Positions 18,023 through 61,869 of a stretch of DNA of 64,000 bases are shown in pieces. The stretch lies in the NCBI RefSeq assembly GCF_901538265.1, contig NZ_LR593886.1, positions 2,650,843 to 2,714,842 on the forward strand, written 5' to 3'. Source of the stretch: Gemmata massiliana. Lineage in GTDB: Bacteria; Planctomycetota; Planctomycetia; Gemmatales; Gemmataceae. The notes under the pieces were generated by a model, which searched no databases, was not told where the DNA came from, and was given only the letters and a program-made list of their open reading frames with translations. Each line of letters begins with the position of its first letter. The stretch's first letter is position 1. The translations under genes and the position numbers were made by a program.

Positions 18023-19519
18023 GTGGCCGTGACGCTGAACCGACAGGTTCTCTTTCAGGTGACCGCACCCGCGCTGCTCGTCGCGCTGGCGATGCTCGGC
18101 ACGAGTTTGCTGGGCATTCGCTCGATCAACCACCTCCAGGCGGACCAGGACAAGATCGTTTCCGAACACGTCCGCAGCCTGGAGGCGGCGCAGGATCTGG
18201 AAACCGAGCTGCGCCACATCCGGTTCCACAGCTTCCTGTACGTCATGGACATGACGCCGACACGCTGGGCCAAAGTCGCACGCGATCAGGCCGCGTTCGA
18301 GCGCATCCTCGGAGAGATTCGGGACCGCGCGGGTTCTGATGAAGAACGCGAGGTTCTGGGCGAGATCGAAACCGGCTACACGCGGTACCGCCAAGAACTC
18401 GAAGCCACGACCCGCTCGCCGGTCGGCCCGACTAAGGAGGATTCCTTGGTTTGGTCCGATGCGCACCCGATCCGTTACATCGTGGTTCCGTGCGAACAGT
18501 TGCTCAACTTGAATCGCAAAGCGATGCAGGAAACGGTCGATCAAAGTGCCCAACAGGGCCGGCGCGCACGCACGTGGATGATCCTGCTTGGTGTGCTCGG
18601 GGCCGTCGGGGGATTGGTCGGTGGATTCGGTATGGCGTGGGGGTTAAGTCGGTCCATTACCCGACTGAGTGTCCGGCTCCGCGACGTTCACGCGCACTTG
18701 GATCAAGAAGTCGGATCGCTCCGGTTAACGGCCGAGGGTGGTGATCTCCAGCGAATGGAAAAGCAGGTAGGGACGATTCTGGAACGCGTGCGCGACGTGG
18801 TGAGCCAGCTTCAGCGCCAGGAGTGTGAAGCGCTCCGGGCCGAGCAACTGGCGGCGGTAGGTCAACTGGCCGCGAGTGTCGCACACGAGGTCCGGAACCC
18901 ACTGACTAGCATCAAACTCCTGGTTGGAGCCGCACTCAGCGGTCGGTGCCCGCGCGGGTTGTCTGAGACTGACCTCCAGGTCATTCACGATGAAGTTGGG
19001 CGGCTCGAACGGAAGGTTCAGTCGCTCCTCGATTTCGCGCGACCGCTGGAAATCGGGCCGGAACCGCAGGACATCGCTGGAGTGGTTCATCAGGTCATCG
19101 ACCTCGTTCGCGAGCGCCTTACGCGACAGACCGTGTGCTTGACACTTGATCTCCCGCCCGGTCCGGTCGCGGCCGAACTCGACGCCGATCAGTTCAAGGG
19201 CGTGCTGGTCAACTTGATCTTCAACGCGCTCGACACGATGCCCGGCGGCGGCGGACTCGATGTGCAACTCGCGCGGGAAACGGGCGGTGCCGTGCGACTG
19301 ACGGTCGCGGACACGGGGCCGGGGATCGACGACCGCGTGGCCGATCGGCTGTTCACTCCGTTCTTCAGCACCAAGCCGACCGGAACCGGATTGGGTCTGA
19401 GCGTCTCGCGCCGGATCGTTCAAGCCCACGGTGGGACACTAACTGCGGCGAACCGCACCGCTGGAGGCGCCTGTTTCACGATCACTCTCCCGGGCGGAAG
19501 GACGAAAAGCACAGTGTGA
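18023..19519 (+). CDS. Membrane sensor histidine kinase (NtrB/ZraS-like)
   Basis: The 498-residue kinase probably phosphorylates the response regulator encoded next. GTG 18023 is chosen because GGGAGG precedes it by about 5 nt and the signal-anchor follows (LFQVTAPALLVALAMLGTSL). A periplasmic four-helix-type region (HLQADQDKIVSEHVRSLEAA) leads to a second membrane helix (MILLGVLGAVGGLVGGFGMA) and a HAMP-like linker. The dimerisation domain contains AASVAHEVRNPLTSIKLLVG, with His288 as phosphoacceptor. The ATPase domain shows N (NLIFNALDTMPGG), G1 (DTGPGIDD), F (LFTPFFSTK) and G2 (GTGLGLSVSRRIV) boxes. It lies 23 nt after the RND pair, on the same strand, which suggests it senses pump substrate or envelope stress. 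Confidence 0.92.
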   Translation: MAVTLNRQVLFQVTAPALLVALAMLGTSLLGIRSINHLQADQDKIVSEHVRSLEAAQDLETELRHIRFHSFLYVMDMTPTRWAKVARDQAAFERILGEIRDRAGSDEEREVLGEIETGYTRYRQELEATTRSPVGPTKEDSLVWSDAHPIRYIVVPCEQLLNLNRKAMQETVDQSAQQGRRARTWMILLGVLGAVGGLVGGFGMAWGLSRSITRLSVRLRDVHAHLDQEVGSLRLTAEGGDLQRMEKQVGTILERVRDVVSQLQRQECEALRAEQLAAVGQLAASVAHEVRNPLTSIKLLVGAALSGRCPRGLSETDLQVIHDEVGRLERKVQSLLDFARPLEIGPEPQDIAGVVHQVIDLVRERLTRQTVCLTLDLPPGPVAAELDADQFKGVLVNLIFNALDTMPGGGGLDVQLARETGGAVRLTVADTGPGIDDRVADRLFTPFFSTKPTGTGLGLSVSRRIVQAHGGTLTAANRTAGGACFTITLPGGRTKSTV

Positions 19520-19610
19520 ATTGGGCCGGAATTTACGCTTCGATTTCCGCTGGTCTCTTCGTTATTCGCATGTTCTGAAACGATCGGTTCAGGCCCTGCA
19601 GACCGCCGGA

Positions 19611-19728
19611 ATGTTAGCCGTTTGGGAGCGGTCCATCACGCGGAATGAGTGCGTAACTCTTTTGTGGAACAGGAGTTGTCGGCAATCTGCGGCATTCCAT
19701 AAGGCCGGAAACGTTAGCTAAAGTTAGC
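19611..19728 (-). repeat. GCTAAC-motif intergenic block 1
   Basis: Read on the minus strand, 19728-19709 is gctaactttagctaacgttt, two 10-nt GCTAAC units in tandem. A further unit, aaacggctaacat, ends at 19611. The same layout occurs at 34024-34150, and related units at 60713-60760. It lies between the sensor kinase and its response regulator. Confidence 0.6.
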
Positions 19729-19799
19729 AAAATGGATTAAGTCGATTCTGGTGAACAATTTGTGTCGCTAACGAATATCTCTCGCTCCGAACGATCACG

Positions 19800-21218
19800 A
19801 TGCCAACGCTTCTCGTAGTGGACGACGAACCGAGCGTGTGTTACTCGATCGCGCGGCTGTTCGGCGACGAAACGACGCGGGTCGTCACCGCGGGTACGGT
19901 GGCCGAGGGCATTCGCGCGTTTCGGTCCGAGCGCCCGGAAGTGGTGGTGCTCGACCTGCTCCTGCCCGACGGTACCGGGTTGCAAGCGTTCGAGGCCATT
20001 CGCGCGATCTCCCCGAAGCAACCGGTCGTCTTCATCACGGCTCACGGCACGACGACCACCGCGATCGAGGCCATGAAGCAGGGGGCGTTCGATTACCTGA
20101 TTAAGCCCCTCGATTTCACCCGAGTGGCGAACATCCTGCGGCGCGCGTTCGAGGCCGCGCACCTGATGCAAGTGTCCCCGGTGGTCCCCGTGCTAGAGCC
20201 GCGCGAGCAACTCGTCGGCCGCGCGCCGGTCATTCAGGAGGTGTGCAAGCAGATCGGCCGCGTCGCGCCGCAAGACGTGAACGTGCTGATCCTCGGCGAG
20301 AGCGGGACTGGCAAGGAACTGGTTGCGCGTGCGGTCTACCACCACAGCAAACGATCGGACAAGCCGTTTCTCGCGATCAACTGTGCCGCACTCCCCGAAT
20401 CACTGATCGAGAGCGAACTGTTCGGTCACGAGCGCGGCGCGTTTACGGGTGCGGACCGCGCGCGCATCGGGAAATTCGAGCAGTGCCAGGACGGGACCAT
20501 TTTCCTCGACGAGATCGGGGACATGCCGCTCGCGGCCCAGGCCAAAGTGCTGCGGCTGTTGCAGGACCAGACGTTCGAGCGAGTCGGCGGGCGCGAGAGC
20601 ATCCGGACGCACGTCCGTGTGATCGCGGCCACGAACCAGAATCTGGAAAAGCGGATCGCCGCGGGGCTGTTCCGGGCGGACCTGTTCTACCGGCTTCAGG
20701 GGGTTACGATCGCGCTGCCCGCGCTGCGCGACCGGCCCGAGGACATTGCCGAACTCGCGCACCACTTCCTGTTTTTGTTCAACCAGGAACTGGGGCTGAA
20801 CGTTCAGGGCTTCGACCCGGCCGCCCTGGACTGCTTGCGTGCCCACCGGTGGCCGGGAAACATCCGCGAGCTTCAGGCCGTTTTAAAGGAGACGATGCTA
20901 CGAGCCACCGGCGCGATTCTCTTACCAGAGTTCTTGCCTCCGGCCCTTCGCGGACAATCGATCGTGCGCGCCACGGCTCCAGCAACGTCCGGAGAAATGG
21001 ACGTGTCGAAGCTGATCGAGGATCTCGTCGCACGCGGTGAGAACGATCTGCATGCTAGGGTCGTGACGGCTGTGGAGCGGATCTTATTTGACCGAGTGCT
21101 GCACGCGACCAACGGGCACTTGGGCAAAGCGGCCGAGCGGCTCGGGCTTAACCGCTCGACGCTGCGTTACAAACTACGAGATACCGGGCTCTCGGCAGAG
21201 AGCCCGCACGCGGAGTGA
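19800..21218 (+). CDS. NtrC-family sigma-54-dependent response regulator
   Basis: The 472-residue activator has three domains. The receiver (1-120) has acidic pocket DDE at 8-10, phosphoacceptor Asp52 in VVVLDLLLPDG and Lys in DYLIKPLD. The AAA+ domain (about 142-370) has Walker A GESGTGKE (from 166), sigma-54-contacting GAFTGAD, Walker B TIFLDEIGDMP and the arginine-finger region FRADLFYRLQGVTIALPALR. The C-terminal Fis-type helix-turn-helix is LGKAAERLGLNRSTLRYKLR. All key residues are present, so it should hydrolyse ATP and open sigma-54 promoters. The 280-bp gap from the kinase suggests its own promoter. The likely target is the RND operon upstream of 9402. ATG 19800 fits the receiver start, though the ribosome-binding site is weak. 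Confidence 0.95.
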   Translation: MPTLLVVDDEPSVCYSIARLFGDETTRVVTAGTVAEGIRAFRSERPEVVVLDLLLPDGTGLQAFEAIRAISPKQPVVFITAHGTTTTAIEAMKQGAFDYLIKPLDFTRVANILRRAFEAAHLMQVSPVVPVLEPREQLVGRAPVIQEVCKQIGRVAPQDVNVLILGESGTGKELVARAVYHHSKRSDKPFLAINCAALPESLIESELFGHERGAFTGADRARIGKFEQCQDGTIFLDEIGDMPLAAQAKVLRLLQDQTFERVGGRESIRTHVRVIAATNQNLEKRIAAGLFRADLFYRLQGVTIALPALRDRPEDIAELAHHFLFLFNQELGLNVQGFDPAALDCLRAHRWPGNIRELQAVLKETMLRATGAILLPEFLPPALRGQSIVRATAPATSGEMDVSKLIEDLVARGENDLHARVVTAVERILFDRVLHATNGHLGKAAERLGLNRSTLRYKLRDTGLSAESPHAE

Positions 21219-32988: not shown

Positions 32989-33990
32989 ATGAACCAGTCC
33001 GATGCGCGACCGTATGTGTGGATGCTGTGCGGCTCGTTTGCGTTCGCGGTGATGGCGGTCCTGGCCGAGTACCTCACGCGCAAGCCCGACACCTTCTGCG
33101 ATTGGCAGACCGTGGTCGTGTTCCGCGCCGCGCTGGTCACGATGTTCGCCGCGGCGCTCGCGTGGCAGGCCGGAGCGCGTCTTGTGTGGTTCCGCCCGTG
33201 GCGCCTGTGGGTGCGGAGCATCTCGGGCAGTTGCAGCATGGTCGGCACGTTTTACGCCTTCGGCCACCTGCACGCCGAAGACGTGGTGACGCTTTGCAAC
33301 ACGTTCCCGCTCTGGGTCGCGCTCCTTTCCTGGCCGCTGTACAGTCAAGCACCGGGCTGGAAGACGATGGCCGCGATTCTGGTCGGAATCGCGGGTGTGG
33401 TGCTGGTCGAGCAACCGCACATTGAGGCCGGTAACCTCGGAGTGTTTGCGGCTCTTGCGGCGGCATTGTTCACCGCAATCGCGATGCTTGGATTGCACCG
33501 ACTCCACGACGTGGACCCGCGCGCCGTTGTGGTCCACTTCTCCGCGGTGGCCACGATCTTCTGCTTCGTCGCGTTCCTTGTGACCCCGCGGACGCAGCCG
33601 CTGACCCGCGTGTTTGAATTCGGCGTGTTCCTGCGACTCATCGGTATCGGCGTCTCGGCAACGATCGGCCAAGTGTTCCTCACGCTGGCGTTCGGACGCG
33701 GGGCACCTGCCAAGGTGTCCGTGGTCGGGTTGATGCAGATCGTGTTCGTGATGGTCATGTGCGTGTGGGCCTTCGATCGCACTGTCAACACGACCGCATT
33801 GATCGGAACCGGACTCGTGATCGCGCCGACCGCGTGGCTCCTGACGCGGCCCAAAGCCACGAGCGCCGTGAAGCCCAGCCCCGCGCACACACTTCCACCC
33901 GCCACGCCTCAACCCGCTCCCAATCGTACCCCAGTTTCCGGGAGCAACAGCGAGAACACTCCGCTCGCGACGCCGCAATTGCGTCCGTGA
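32989..33990 (+). CDS. DMT-superfamily (EamA-like) membrane transporter
   Basis: The 333-residue protein has about ten hydrophobic helices arranged as two EamA repeats. They start with YVWMLCGSFAFAVMAVLAEY and include GTFYAFGHLHAEDVVTLCNT, a family-like segment in which a metabolite-binding helix is followed by TFPLWVALLSWPLY. The second half ends MQIVFVMVMCVWAFDR and TALIGTGLVIAPTAWLL. The C-terminal ~45 residues are a Pro/Thr-rich cytoplasmic tail. By family it exports or imports small metabolites or nucleotide sugars; the substrate is unknown. ATG 32989 gives the first helix directly. Confidence 0.88.
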   Translation: MNQSDARPYVWMLCGSFAFAVMAVLAEYLTRKPDTFCDWQTVVVFRAALVTMFAAALAWQAGARLVWFRPWRLWVRSISGSCSMVGTFYAFGHLHAEDVVTLCNTFPLWVALLSWPLYSQAPGWKTMAAILVGIAGVVLVEQPHIEAGNLGVFAALAAALFTAIAMLGLHRLHDVDPRAVVVHFSAVATIFCFVAFLVTPRTQPLTRVFEFGVFLRLIGIGVSATIGQVFLTLAFGRGAPAKVSVVGLMQIVFVMVMCVWAFDRTVNTTALIGTGLVIAPTAWLLTRPKATSAVKPSPAHTLPPATPQPAPNRTPVSGSNSENTPLATPQLRP

Positions 33991-34023
33991 TCTCCGATGA
34001 AGCCCAACCCGTTCCGGCACGCG

Positions 34024-34150
34024 GCTAACATTTGCTAACGTTTCTCGGGAGCGGGGTACCACGCGGTGCGGACAGCGTGTGTTAAATGTTAGCTTTTCCG
34101 GTGTTTTGTGCCTTCGTAATGCTTTGTGCGATGCCGCAAACGGCTAACAT
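34024..34150 (+). repeat. GCTAAC-motif intergenic block 2
   Basis: Two tandem 10-nt units at 34024-34043 (gctaacattt then gctaacgttt), an inverted unit at 34084-34093 (aaatgttagc) and a further unit ending aaacggctaacat at 34150. The surrounding 33991-34397 region (407 bases) contains no supported gene and has lower GC than its neighbours. The same tandem unit plus a terminal aaacggctaacat occurs in reverse orientation at 19611-19728. Confidence 0.65.
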
Positions 34151-34397
34151 AGCTCCAAAACTTCGCCTTTCTGAGCACATTTTGGCACCGAAAGACAACC
34201 AGATGCACGCGCATCTTGCGCCTGTTCATTCACTTCAAAAATACCACAAGCAAAGAACGCCTACAATCATATTTGTGGAAGTTTGAACAGTGCTTCTCAT
34301 TCGCGAGCAGCCCCTTGCGGTTGCTCGAAATCGGTGGTAGCGTGCGATATAGCCTCGCGAATGACCTCTCCGCCGCCGGGCGCTGGGGGTACCGCAC

Positions 34398-60712: not shown

Positions 60713-60760
60713 GCTAACATTTGGTGGGGAACGTTGGCTTCATGCGGTCGATTTGTTAGC
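60713..60760. repeat. GCTAAC-motif intergenic block 3
   Basis: gctaacattt (60713-60722) and an inverted gttagc (60755-60760) flank a short segment containing aacgttgg. This is the same GCTAAC unit as at 34024-34093 and 19709-19728. It lies about 80 nt before the leucine-rich-repeat gene. Confidence 0.55.
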
Positions 60761-60840: not shown

Positions 60841-61869
60841 ATGATCGCCCAGGACGAACGCCCGTTTCTCGACGCCATTCTCGCGGCCCCGGACGACGAC
60901 ACGCCGCGATTGGTTTTCGCGGACTGGCTCGATGAACGCGGCCAGAACGATGACGCGGCGCGGGCCGCGCTCATTCGGGCGCAGTGCCAGTTGGAGCGCC
61001 TCGCGCCCGGGAGCGCGGCGCGTCGGGCGCTCGAACGGGCCGCGAAAGCGATCCTGAAGGAACACGGGGAGCGGTGGGCGCAGGAGCTTGCCGGCGCCAA
61101 GATCTGTCGCTCCTGGACGTTCCGGCGCGGGTTCCTGGACGGGGTCAGCATGTCCGCGACCACGTTCGCGCAAAAGGCCGAGCGCCTCTTCGAGATCGCG
61201 CCCACGGTCCGCACGGCCACGTTCCCGGACGCATCGAACGAGGTGACACGGCTCGCGCGGTGTCGGTTCCTCGCACGGCTCGCGTCGGTGGACATTCGCG
61301 ACATGTGCTCGTGCGGTTACTGCCGGATCGAGAACGACCTCCGCGCGTTGTTCGGCTCGAAGCACACGCAGAACTTGACCGCGCTCAACATCGCGGGCGA
61401 CCGAATGGACGCCGCGGGTGCGAAATCCCTCGCTGCGTCGGCGGCCCTCGCGCGGCTCACGGTGCTCGACGTTTCCGACAACCCGTTGGGCGCGACCGGA
61501 GTGCTCGCGCTCGCGAAATCGAAGCACTTGGGGAGCCTCAAGTCGTTGCACCTGGCGCGCACCGAACTCGGTTCCGCGGGCGCCGAGGCGCTCGCGAAAG
61601 TCAAAAACTTGCCCGCGCTCGAACACCTCTCGCTGTGCGGAAACGCGCTCAACGCGGACGCAGTTCGAGCGCTCTTGGCCGCGCCCGTGTTCGCGCAACT
61701 GAAGTCGCTCGACCTTTCCCAGAATCCCCTCCGCGCGCCCGGCGCGAAGTTACTCGCGGCCGTGCCCGCGGGCGCGAAACTGGAACACCTCGACGTGAGA
61801 AAGTGCCAGATCCCGGAAGGCGCAATTCGCACGCTCAAGAAACGGTTCGGGAAGGGAGTAAAGCTCTGA
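60841..61869 (+). CDS. Leucine-rich-repeat protein with N-terminal TIGR02996-type 'repeat-companion' domain
   Basis: The 342-residue protein opens with DERPFLDAILAAPDDDTPRL and VFADWLDERG, the short domain (TIGR02996) found in Gemmata before repeat proteins. A charged linker follows, then leucine-rich repeats of about 24-28 residues: NLTALNIAGDRMDAAGAKSL, RLTVLDVSDNPLGATGVLAL, SLKSLHLARTELGSAGAEAL, ALEHLSLCGNALNADAVRAL and QLKSLDLSQNPLRAPGAKLL. LxxLDLSxNxL repeats give a curved binding surface for proteins. TAGGAG is 8 nt before ATG 60841. No signal peptide, so it acts in the cytoplasm. The partner is unknown. Confidence 0.92.
   Translation: MIAQDERPFLDAILAAPDDDTPRLVFADWLDERGQNDDAARAALIRAQCQLERLAPGSAARRALERAAKAILKEHGERWAQELAGAKICRSWTFRRGFLDGVSMSATTFAQKAERLFEIAPTVRTATFPDASNEVTRLARCRFLARLASVDIRDMCSCGYCRIENDLRALFGSKHTQNLTALNIAGDRMDAAGAKSLAASAALARLTVLDVSDNPLGATGVLALAKSKHLGSLKSLHLARTELGSAGAEALAKVKNLPALEHLSLCGNALNADAVRALLAAPVFAQLKSLDLSQNPLRAPGAKLLAAVPAGAKLEHLDVRKCQIPEGAIRTLKKRFGKGVKL

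Follow-up and report, generated by a model that had tools for sequence, protein, structure and literature searches.

Dispersed intergenic units of one Gemmata clade, with a tandem GCTAAC block at one end and often a sigma70-like promoter at the other, are probably non-coding transcription units

Dispersed intergenic elements that carry promoters are a known kind, of which the Correia elements are the example. The Correia repeat enclosed elements of Neisseria are short, gene-free intergenic units that number at least about 100 per genome and hold a promoter and protein-binding sites. The Gemmata family described here is alike in these respects, its protein-binding sites being candidates. However, Correia elements have terminal inverted repeats and a TA target duplication, whereas in Gemmata the two ends differ and positions are kept between species. 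The BOX elements of pneumococcus are likewise modular, with constant ends and a variable middle; in Gemmata, by contrast, one end is a sigma70-like promoter. Sponge RNAs of the RsmY/RsmZ type repeat a short motif along a non-coding transcript, as is proposed here, but they have few copies per genome and carry their motifs in hairpin loops, whereas the Gemmata family has about 100 loci, the motif UGUUAGC and a putative transcript. The sites of Noc, SlmA and matS are also conserved at tens to hundreds of chromosomal positions. They are single short palindromes, unlike the multi-site units, many with a promoter, found here. The Gemmata family is set apart from the known kind by its ends, its positional stability and its interior types. 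To our knowledge, gene regulation and nucleoid organisation in the phylum are poorly known, and about 100 conserved non-coding units per genome, many of them apparently promoter-bearing, would represent a large hidden layer of the genome. No description of such an element was found in the open-licence literature searched, including passages of PMC10817699 and PMC4672568.

The window is the whole stretch of 64,000 nucleotides analysed (positions 2650843-2714842 of the single 10,135,216-base contig; G+C 61-70%). The initial annotation had reported a motif block common to three intergenic sites of the window, at 19.6, 34.0 and 60.7 kb. At 34 kb (locus L016), the tandem block gctaacatttgctaacgttt lies at 34024-34043 on the forward strand, at the far end of its unit, and reads AAACGTTAGCAAATGTTAGC on the proposed transcript strand. 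The ortholog L257 of a second Gemmata genome (G009) has the same block. An interior copy, GCTAACATTT, stands in the orientation opposite to the block at 34084-34093 (reverse strand), and a distal single copy, aaacggctaacat, at 34138-34150 (forward strand); the GTTAGC of the former and the GCTAAC of the latter are unchanged in G009. The approximate extent of the unit, 33942-34291 (no strand assigned), was taken from two blocks common to L016 and L024 (77% identity over 106 bp and 79% over 67 bp). At 19.6 kb, the tandem block gctaactttagctaacgttt occupies 19709-19728 on the reverse strand, and the distal single copy AAACGGCTAACAT lies at 19611-19623 on the same strand. The distance from the distal GCTAAC to the first base of the block is 119 nt at 34 kb and 110 nt at 19.6 kb. 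For these two sites the block sequences, their identity in 18 of 20 letters and the aaacggctaacat downstream of both were confirmed. The 60.7 kb site did not hold up as a third member. It has a single GCTAACATTT (60713-60722, forward strand) and an inverted single GTTAGC beside it (60755-60760, reverse strand), both doubtful members; the tandem partner is absent, and the promoter scan gave nothing convincing. Because only one half and no convincing promoter box are present, the site was left out of the family and is not a clear member. The gene at 60841-61869 encodes a leucine-rich repeat protein whose N-terminus may resemble the TIGR02996 domain, which is common in Gemmata. By Pfam, the 19.6 kb unit sits between genes for a histidine kinase and an NtrC-type sigma54 activator (18023-21218).

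GCTAAC alone was not enriched in the window, with 18 matches against 14.0 expected, and 16 of 100 shuffles gave 18 or more. A genome-wide search for GCTAACRTTT yielded 134 matches against 21 for the control. The tandem form GCTAAC-NTTN-GCTAAC (GCTAACNTTNGCTAAC) occurred 59 times in the 10.1 Mb genome and its reversed control not once. Chance origin of the tandem block was rejected, as reversed-pattern controls were zero or near zero. In an unselected contiguous region of 400 kb, with genes taken from our own gene caller, GCTAACRTTT was absent from the 271,981 bp predicted to be coding and present 10 times in the 128,019 bp between genes. The equal density in coding and non-coding DNA that the initial annotation had named as a refuting outcome was not found. 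Among the 53 of the 59 tandem occurrences that were read, none fell inside a predicted gene, and two (L005 and L275) overlapped a predicted start by 8 bp. The GCTAACNTTNGCTAAC sites are spread along the chromosome in any gene context, and large gaps exist, for example at 3.62-4.61 Mb. Replication-strand polarity was rejected, since both strands are present in both halves of the contig by eye. A protein-coding reading of ATGTTAGCAAATGTTAGC, on the other strand, was also rejected, because by eye neither its ATG nor the frame that follows is preserved between the own genome and a third Gemmata genome (G011). At L005 and its ortholog L365, one ATG within the block shares its reading frame with the adjacent gene, as judged by eye.

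The family is restricted to a small clade. Exact GCTAACATTTGCTAAC was found in 3 of 95 genomes of the family-level taxon, with 49 copies in the own genome, 45 in G009 and 22 in G011; among 392 genomes drawn from the phylum, only the own genome contained it. When up to two mismatches were allowed, these three genomes gave 126, 130 and 174 matches, respectively, against 4, 2 and 1 for the controls, and the other 16 genomes of the genus gave 0-2 (controls 0-4). The broader block AAANGTTAGCAANTGTTA with at most one mismatch occurred 99, 101 and 129 times in the own genome, G009 and G011, and was absent from the 16 others and from the controls. The letters between the two halves of the block vary (ATTT, AATT, ATTG and others). 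Upstream of nadB, the gap of the own genome (G000), G009 and G011 spans 494, 1049 and 543 bp, respectively; the first and the last contain a tandem block, and that of G009 contains a variant differing by one letter. Among the 16 other genomes of the genus, the gap was measurable in 13, where it was 22-376 bp long with the neighbour on the other strand, and the nadB loci of all 16 contained no block. The sharp limit of the family, 3 of 19 genus genomes, means that a putative recognising protein can be sought by presence and absence. The motif is distinct enough for this protein to be isolated by direct capture as well.

The block forms one end of a unit roughly 230-430 bp long. With position 0 set at the first G of the block, most further copies that share its orientation fall within +72 to +149, and 16 of these 33 fall within +115 to +129; among the 14 inverted copies, 11 are found between +34 and +107. 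Interior copies in the same and in the opposite orientation numbered 35 and 12 in the own genome, 29 and 16 in G009 (these two sets not being independent), and 25 and 5 in G011. Three types of central box recur, each with a favoured distance from the block. Of 38 elements with a type A box (CGCCGCAA, then GTTRCG), 25 have it at +44 to +46; the type C box (GGGAAAACGA) is at +53 in 5 of its 7 elements, and the type B box (CAACTGCTGGTATTTCAAG) is at +67 to +71 in 13 of its 17, with orthologs of the own genome and G009 counted apart. Simple rules typed 62 of 125 elements, and some of the other 63 are of type B by eye. The spacers had been described as unrelated. This is true of most pairs, but not of the recurring central boxes or of a few units that are longer diverged copies. 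Beyond the short boxes, no conservation of the interior was seen in the alignments of the own genome with G009 and G011. At about +150 to +230, L014 and L372 (G011) carry a separate palindromic repeat beside the unit, which reads GGGACCGCGGGCATCTTGCCCGC...GCGGGCAAGATGCCCGCGGTCCC in the own genome; the G009 alignment ends before reaching it. Related genes or repeats with 73-85% DNA identity over about 150-380 bp were seen downstream of the L025, L261 and L263 blocks and elsewhere in the 400 kb.

At the other end, promoter-like boxes point inward, towards the block. In the 125 elements, the region from +160 to +280 holds 76 TATAAT-like boxes on the reverse strand relative to GCTAAC and 44 on the GCTAAC strand. 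In 16 of the 125, GTnCACT stands no more than 8 bp ahead of a TATAAT-like box, always inward and never on the other strand; this combination was absent from both strands of the 400 kb. In 50 own loci, GTnCACT with a -10 box was found five times within the element zone and twice outside it (L275 and L278); the L275 promoter has a GTTAGC 392 bp downstream, and that of L278 (position 2034) has none within 400 bp. A strong -10 box with TTG at 16-18 bp occurred inward in 20 of 74 elements and outward in 1; the left side gave 1 and 0, and each of three shuffles gave 1-3. The strong -10 box alone was hardly enriched (43 of 74 inward versus 31 outward, and 29-35 in shuffles). When the box was picked from the own genome without regard to G009, 20 of 24 pairs had an unchanged -10 hexamer in G009, versus 49.5% of other 6-mers, and the TTG was unchanged in 13 of 13. 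The clearest copies read TTGtaAT-N17-TATAAT with the GTnCACT box inside the spacer. This box extends to TTCACTAGTG in promoter ends such as L398-L400, and to TTCACTAGTGAA in L025; going by its letters, the extended box looks as if it were the half-palindrome of a putative second regulator.

An independent search of whole genomes for the strict promoter pattern by itself gave 9 places in the own genome and 10 in G009, and none in the control or in the 17 other genus genomes, G011 included. GTTAGC follows within about 420 bp downstream at 18 of these 19 places, several of which are orthologs between the own genome and G009 and hence not independent. Twelve have a strict GTTAGC-N4-GTTA pair, five a degenerate pair and one a single GTTAGC, and one (L407) has none. 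Because a search for the promoter alone leads to GTTAGC in 18 of 19 cases, the two ends belong to one unit. The inward promoter was present in 5 of 30 elements in which the gene behind the block runs away from it, versus 5 of 20 in which the gene runs towards the block. This indifference to direction indicates that the promoter does not simply serve that gene. Sigma70-like -35 and -10 boxes at 16-18 bp are thus present in part of the units. The 34 kb unit has them weakly: its candidate inward -10 box, TATGAT (34266-34271, reverse strand), is weak and lacks a TTG at 16-19 bp, and its hexamer is intact in G009. The 19.6 kb unit does not have them, the promoter scan giving no convincing box beyond the distal copy.

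The flanks of own and G009 elements are mostly 87-96% alike where aligned. In 29 pairs, the two ten-base segments that make up the block were 99.7% and 97.6% identical, and identity over the next 180 bp was 80-89%, the block values being biased because the pairs were picked for a block in both genomes. In six pairs found by synteny (L001, L026, L028, L263, L267 and L277), the 16 letters were kept with 0-1 changes in G009, and L024 and L270 have exact matches there. Overall, the block was kept in 37 of 37 aligned pairs, 31 of which were chosen for an exact G009 block. For the remaining 16 of the 53 own entries, which include a second register of L022, no counterpart was located in the G009 sequence compared, which does not imply absence. 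Copies of GCTAAC/GTTAGC outside the chosen block were intact in G009 in 19 of 25 cases versus 49.4% of other 6-mers. In G011, 8 of 20 loci share a neighbour gene with an own element. In the eight alignments the block was kept in all (by choice) and much of the remainder was not kept; the distal GCTAAC was intact in two (L262 and L272), had one change in three (L001, L005 and L271) and was lost in three. Blocks hold their position between species while spacers diverge. The earlier proposal that the motif is kept and the spacer is not was thus borne out, both by the secondary copies and by the survival of the block across species. Judged by their sequence and its conservation, the GCTAAC/GTTAGC copies are likely a candidate recognition site for a protein.

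The two ends are found in company, conservation extends to both the block and the promoter boxes, and the unit is intergenic and confined to three genus genomes among those searched. We believe that these are probably about 100 intergenic, non-coding transcription units per genome, with the GTTAGC repeats as a candidate protein recognition motif. More specifically, a dispersed transcription unit some 230-430 bp long, peculiar to one Gemmata clade, would have the block as its downstream end and yield a short non-coding RNA, a reading we accept and doubt in equal measure. RNA polymerase with a sigma70-type factor would start at the promoter of the unit itself, cross a fast-evolving interior that often has one of the three central boxes and further GTTAGC copies, and arrive at the tandem AAATGTTAGCAAATGTTAGC. 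The putative product would be a short non-coding RNA with UGUUAGC repeats. It is known that the GGA repeats of Rsm RNAs are bound by CsrA/RsmA, and by analogy the UGUUAGC repeats may be bound by a putative clade-specific protein. Several points count against a transcription unit. Only 20 of 74 elements have a promoter by strict criteria, a strong -10 box alone is hardly enriched, G011 lacks the strict promoter pattern, and the promoters of L407 and L278 have no GTTAGC downstream in the span read. Nor is there an excess of terminators, a conserved RNA structure apart from one invariant stem, an Rfam match in the elements scanned or an interior conserved beyond short boxes, and several interior copies are inverted. 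We put forward tentatively, and with more doubt than confidence, that in this clade each chromosome has come to hold about 100 autonomous intergenic RNA genes alike only in their promoter, short central boxes and UGUUAGC handle, which would form a distributed RNA-protein system, either a sponge or an RNA-based chromosome organiser.

That several interior copies are inverted suits a DNA site no less well than an RNA motif. A clade-specific protein might bind the GCTAAC pairs spaced 10 bp apart together with the distal copies and bend or loop the intervening 100-150 bp, either organising the nucleoid or controlling the enclosed promoter, with transcription being incidental. We regard this as possible, though it is not the reading we prefer. 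The 10-bp spacing of the direct repeats, the favoured positions of the central boxes, the presence of copies in both orientations and the chromosome-wide spread in any gene context all suit such a site. So does the lack of covarying RNA structure and of a terminator excess. No covarying base pair was found in 14 type B and 27 type A sequences; one invariant stem, GUUAGC-AAAU-GUUAGC with two GU pairs, shows no covariation. A structured RNA family was accordingly rejected, Rfam giving no gathering-level match in the window and, in a looser scan of 12 element loci, no match within the element. Outside the element, L355:3963-4017 matched the Acido-Lenti-1 RNA below gathering score (E 0.028). An intrinsic terminator after the block was rejected as well, with 20 in 125 elements versus 13-18 in shuffles. 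A nucleoprotein site would, however, need a separate reason for the linked inward promoter, and the interior copies being mostly in one orientation and the large GCTAACNTTNGCTAAC-free gaps do not suit it.

An origin of the units as old, non-autonomous mobile elements of a MITE-like kind, comparable to Correia and BOX, is unlikely. Such elements would have spread in the ancestor of the clade, and the block and the promoter would be their two ends. The constant ends with a variable interior, and the presence of the family at about 100 copies in each of only three genus genomes, agree with such an origin. Long copies at different places agree with it as well. L268, L273, L237 and L253 have about 350-380 bp in common (about -40 to +340 of the block) at about 83-94% identity, and the flanks of L273 and L237 differ though these two are closest to each other among the paralogs; the 34 kb unit and L024 are a second such case. 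The four L268-type units also carry extra inverted and hairpin-like stretches. However, no target duplication was seen by eye in the L268-type copies, and the 34 kb unit, the one unit examined for this over the interval 33921-34310, showed no terminal inverted repeat. The inverted 8-mers in that interval comprise copies of the GCTAACAT type, a self-overlapping CGCAATTG and a single GCTCGCGA (33963 with 34301); a repeat search gave two further pairs, both GC-rich, with one arm in the left flank and the other in the interior. No empty site was seen among the 37 aligned own/G009 entries, all of which keep the block (31 of them pre-chosen for it), and there are the shared neighbours in G011. Moreover, the motif is conserved while the spacer decays, unlike in a dead repeat. 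An integron attC site was rejected, as its consensus misfits by eye.

The possible role as a regulon operator for the downstream genes (those at 19800, 34398 and 60841) was not supported. Of 51 elements, 32 lie in tandem, 11 in divergent and 8 in convergent gaps, and intergenic length predicts 60, 29 and 12%. No Pfam family of the flanking proteins recurred in more than 2 of 55 or 2 of 45 scanned, and a functional regulon of the neighbours was rejected on this diversity. An operator of the adjacent genes is therefore very improbable, intergenic, conserved and built of tandem half-sites as the block is, because the elements show no upstream preference, 8 of 51 even lying in convergent gaps, their neighbours have no common function or arrangement, and the promoter of the unit shows no dependence on which way the gene beyond the block is oriented.

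Relatives beyond the clade were also sought. A viral source was rejected: of 55 viral stretches with the AAANGTTAGCAANTGTTA-type left-end pattern, none had the upstream promoter box and one had a further GTTAGC within 200 bp, so these matches are probably due to chance. When viral contigs were searched with a neighbouring protein, no relative emerged. A scan of genome contigs for the motif in other taxa gave at least 120 stretches. Among the 80 matches listed, 18 are from Gemmata sp. IIL30, 11 of which have a further copy within 200 bp; the other 62 include 11 with a further copy within 200 bp, none of these with a promoter box. Six of these last 11 (L104, L123, L128, L154, L172 and L177) are near-identical Clostridia-type sequences with GCTAACATTTGCTAAC and further copies and no promoter box, and they probably represent a single conserved gene or a mobile element that is distinct from the Gemmata units.
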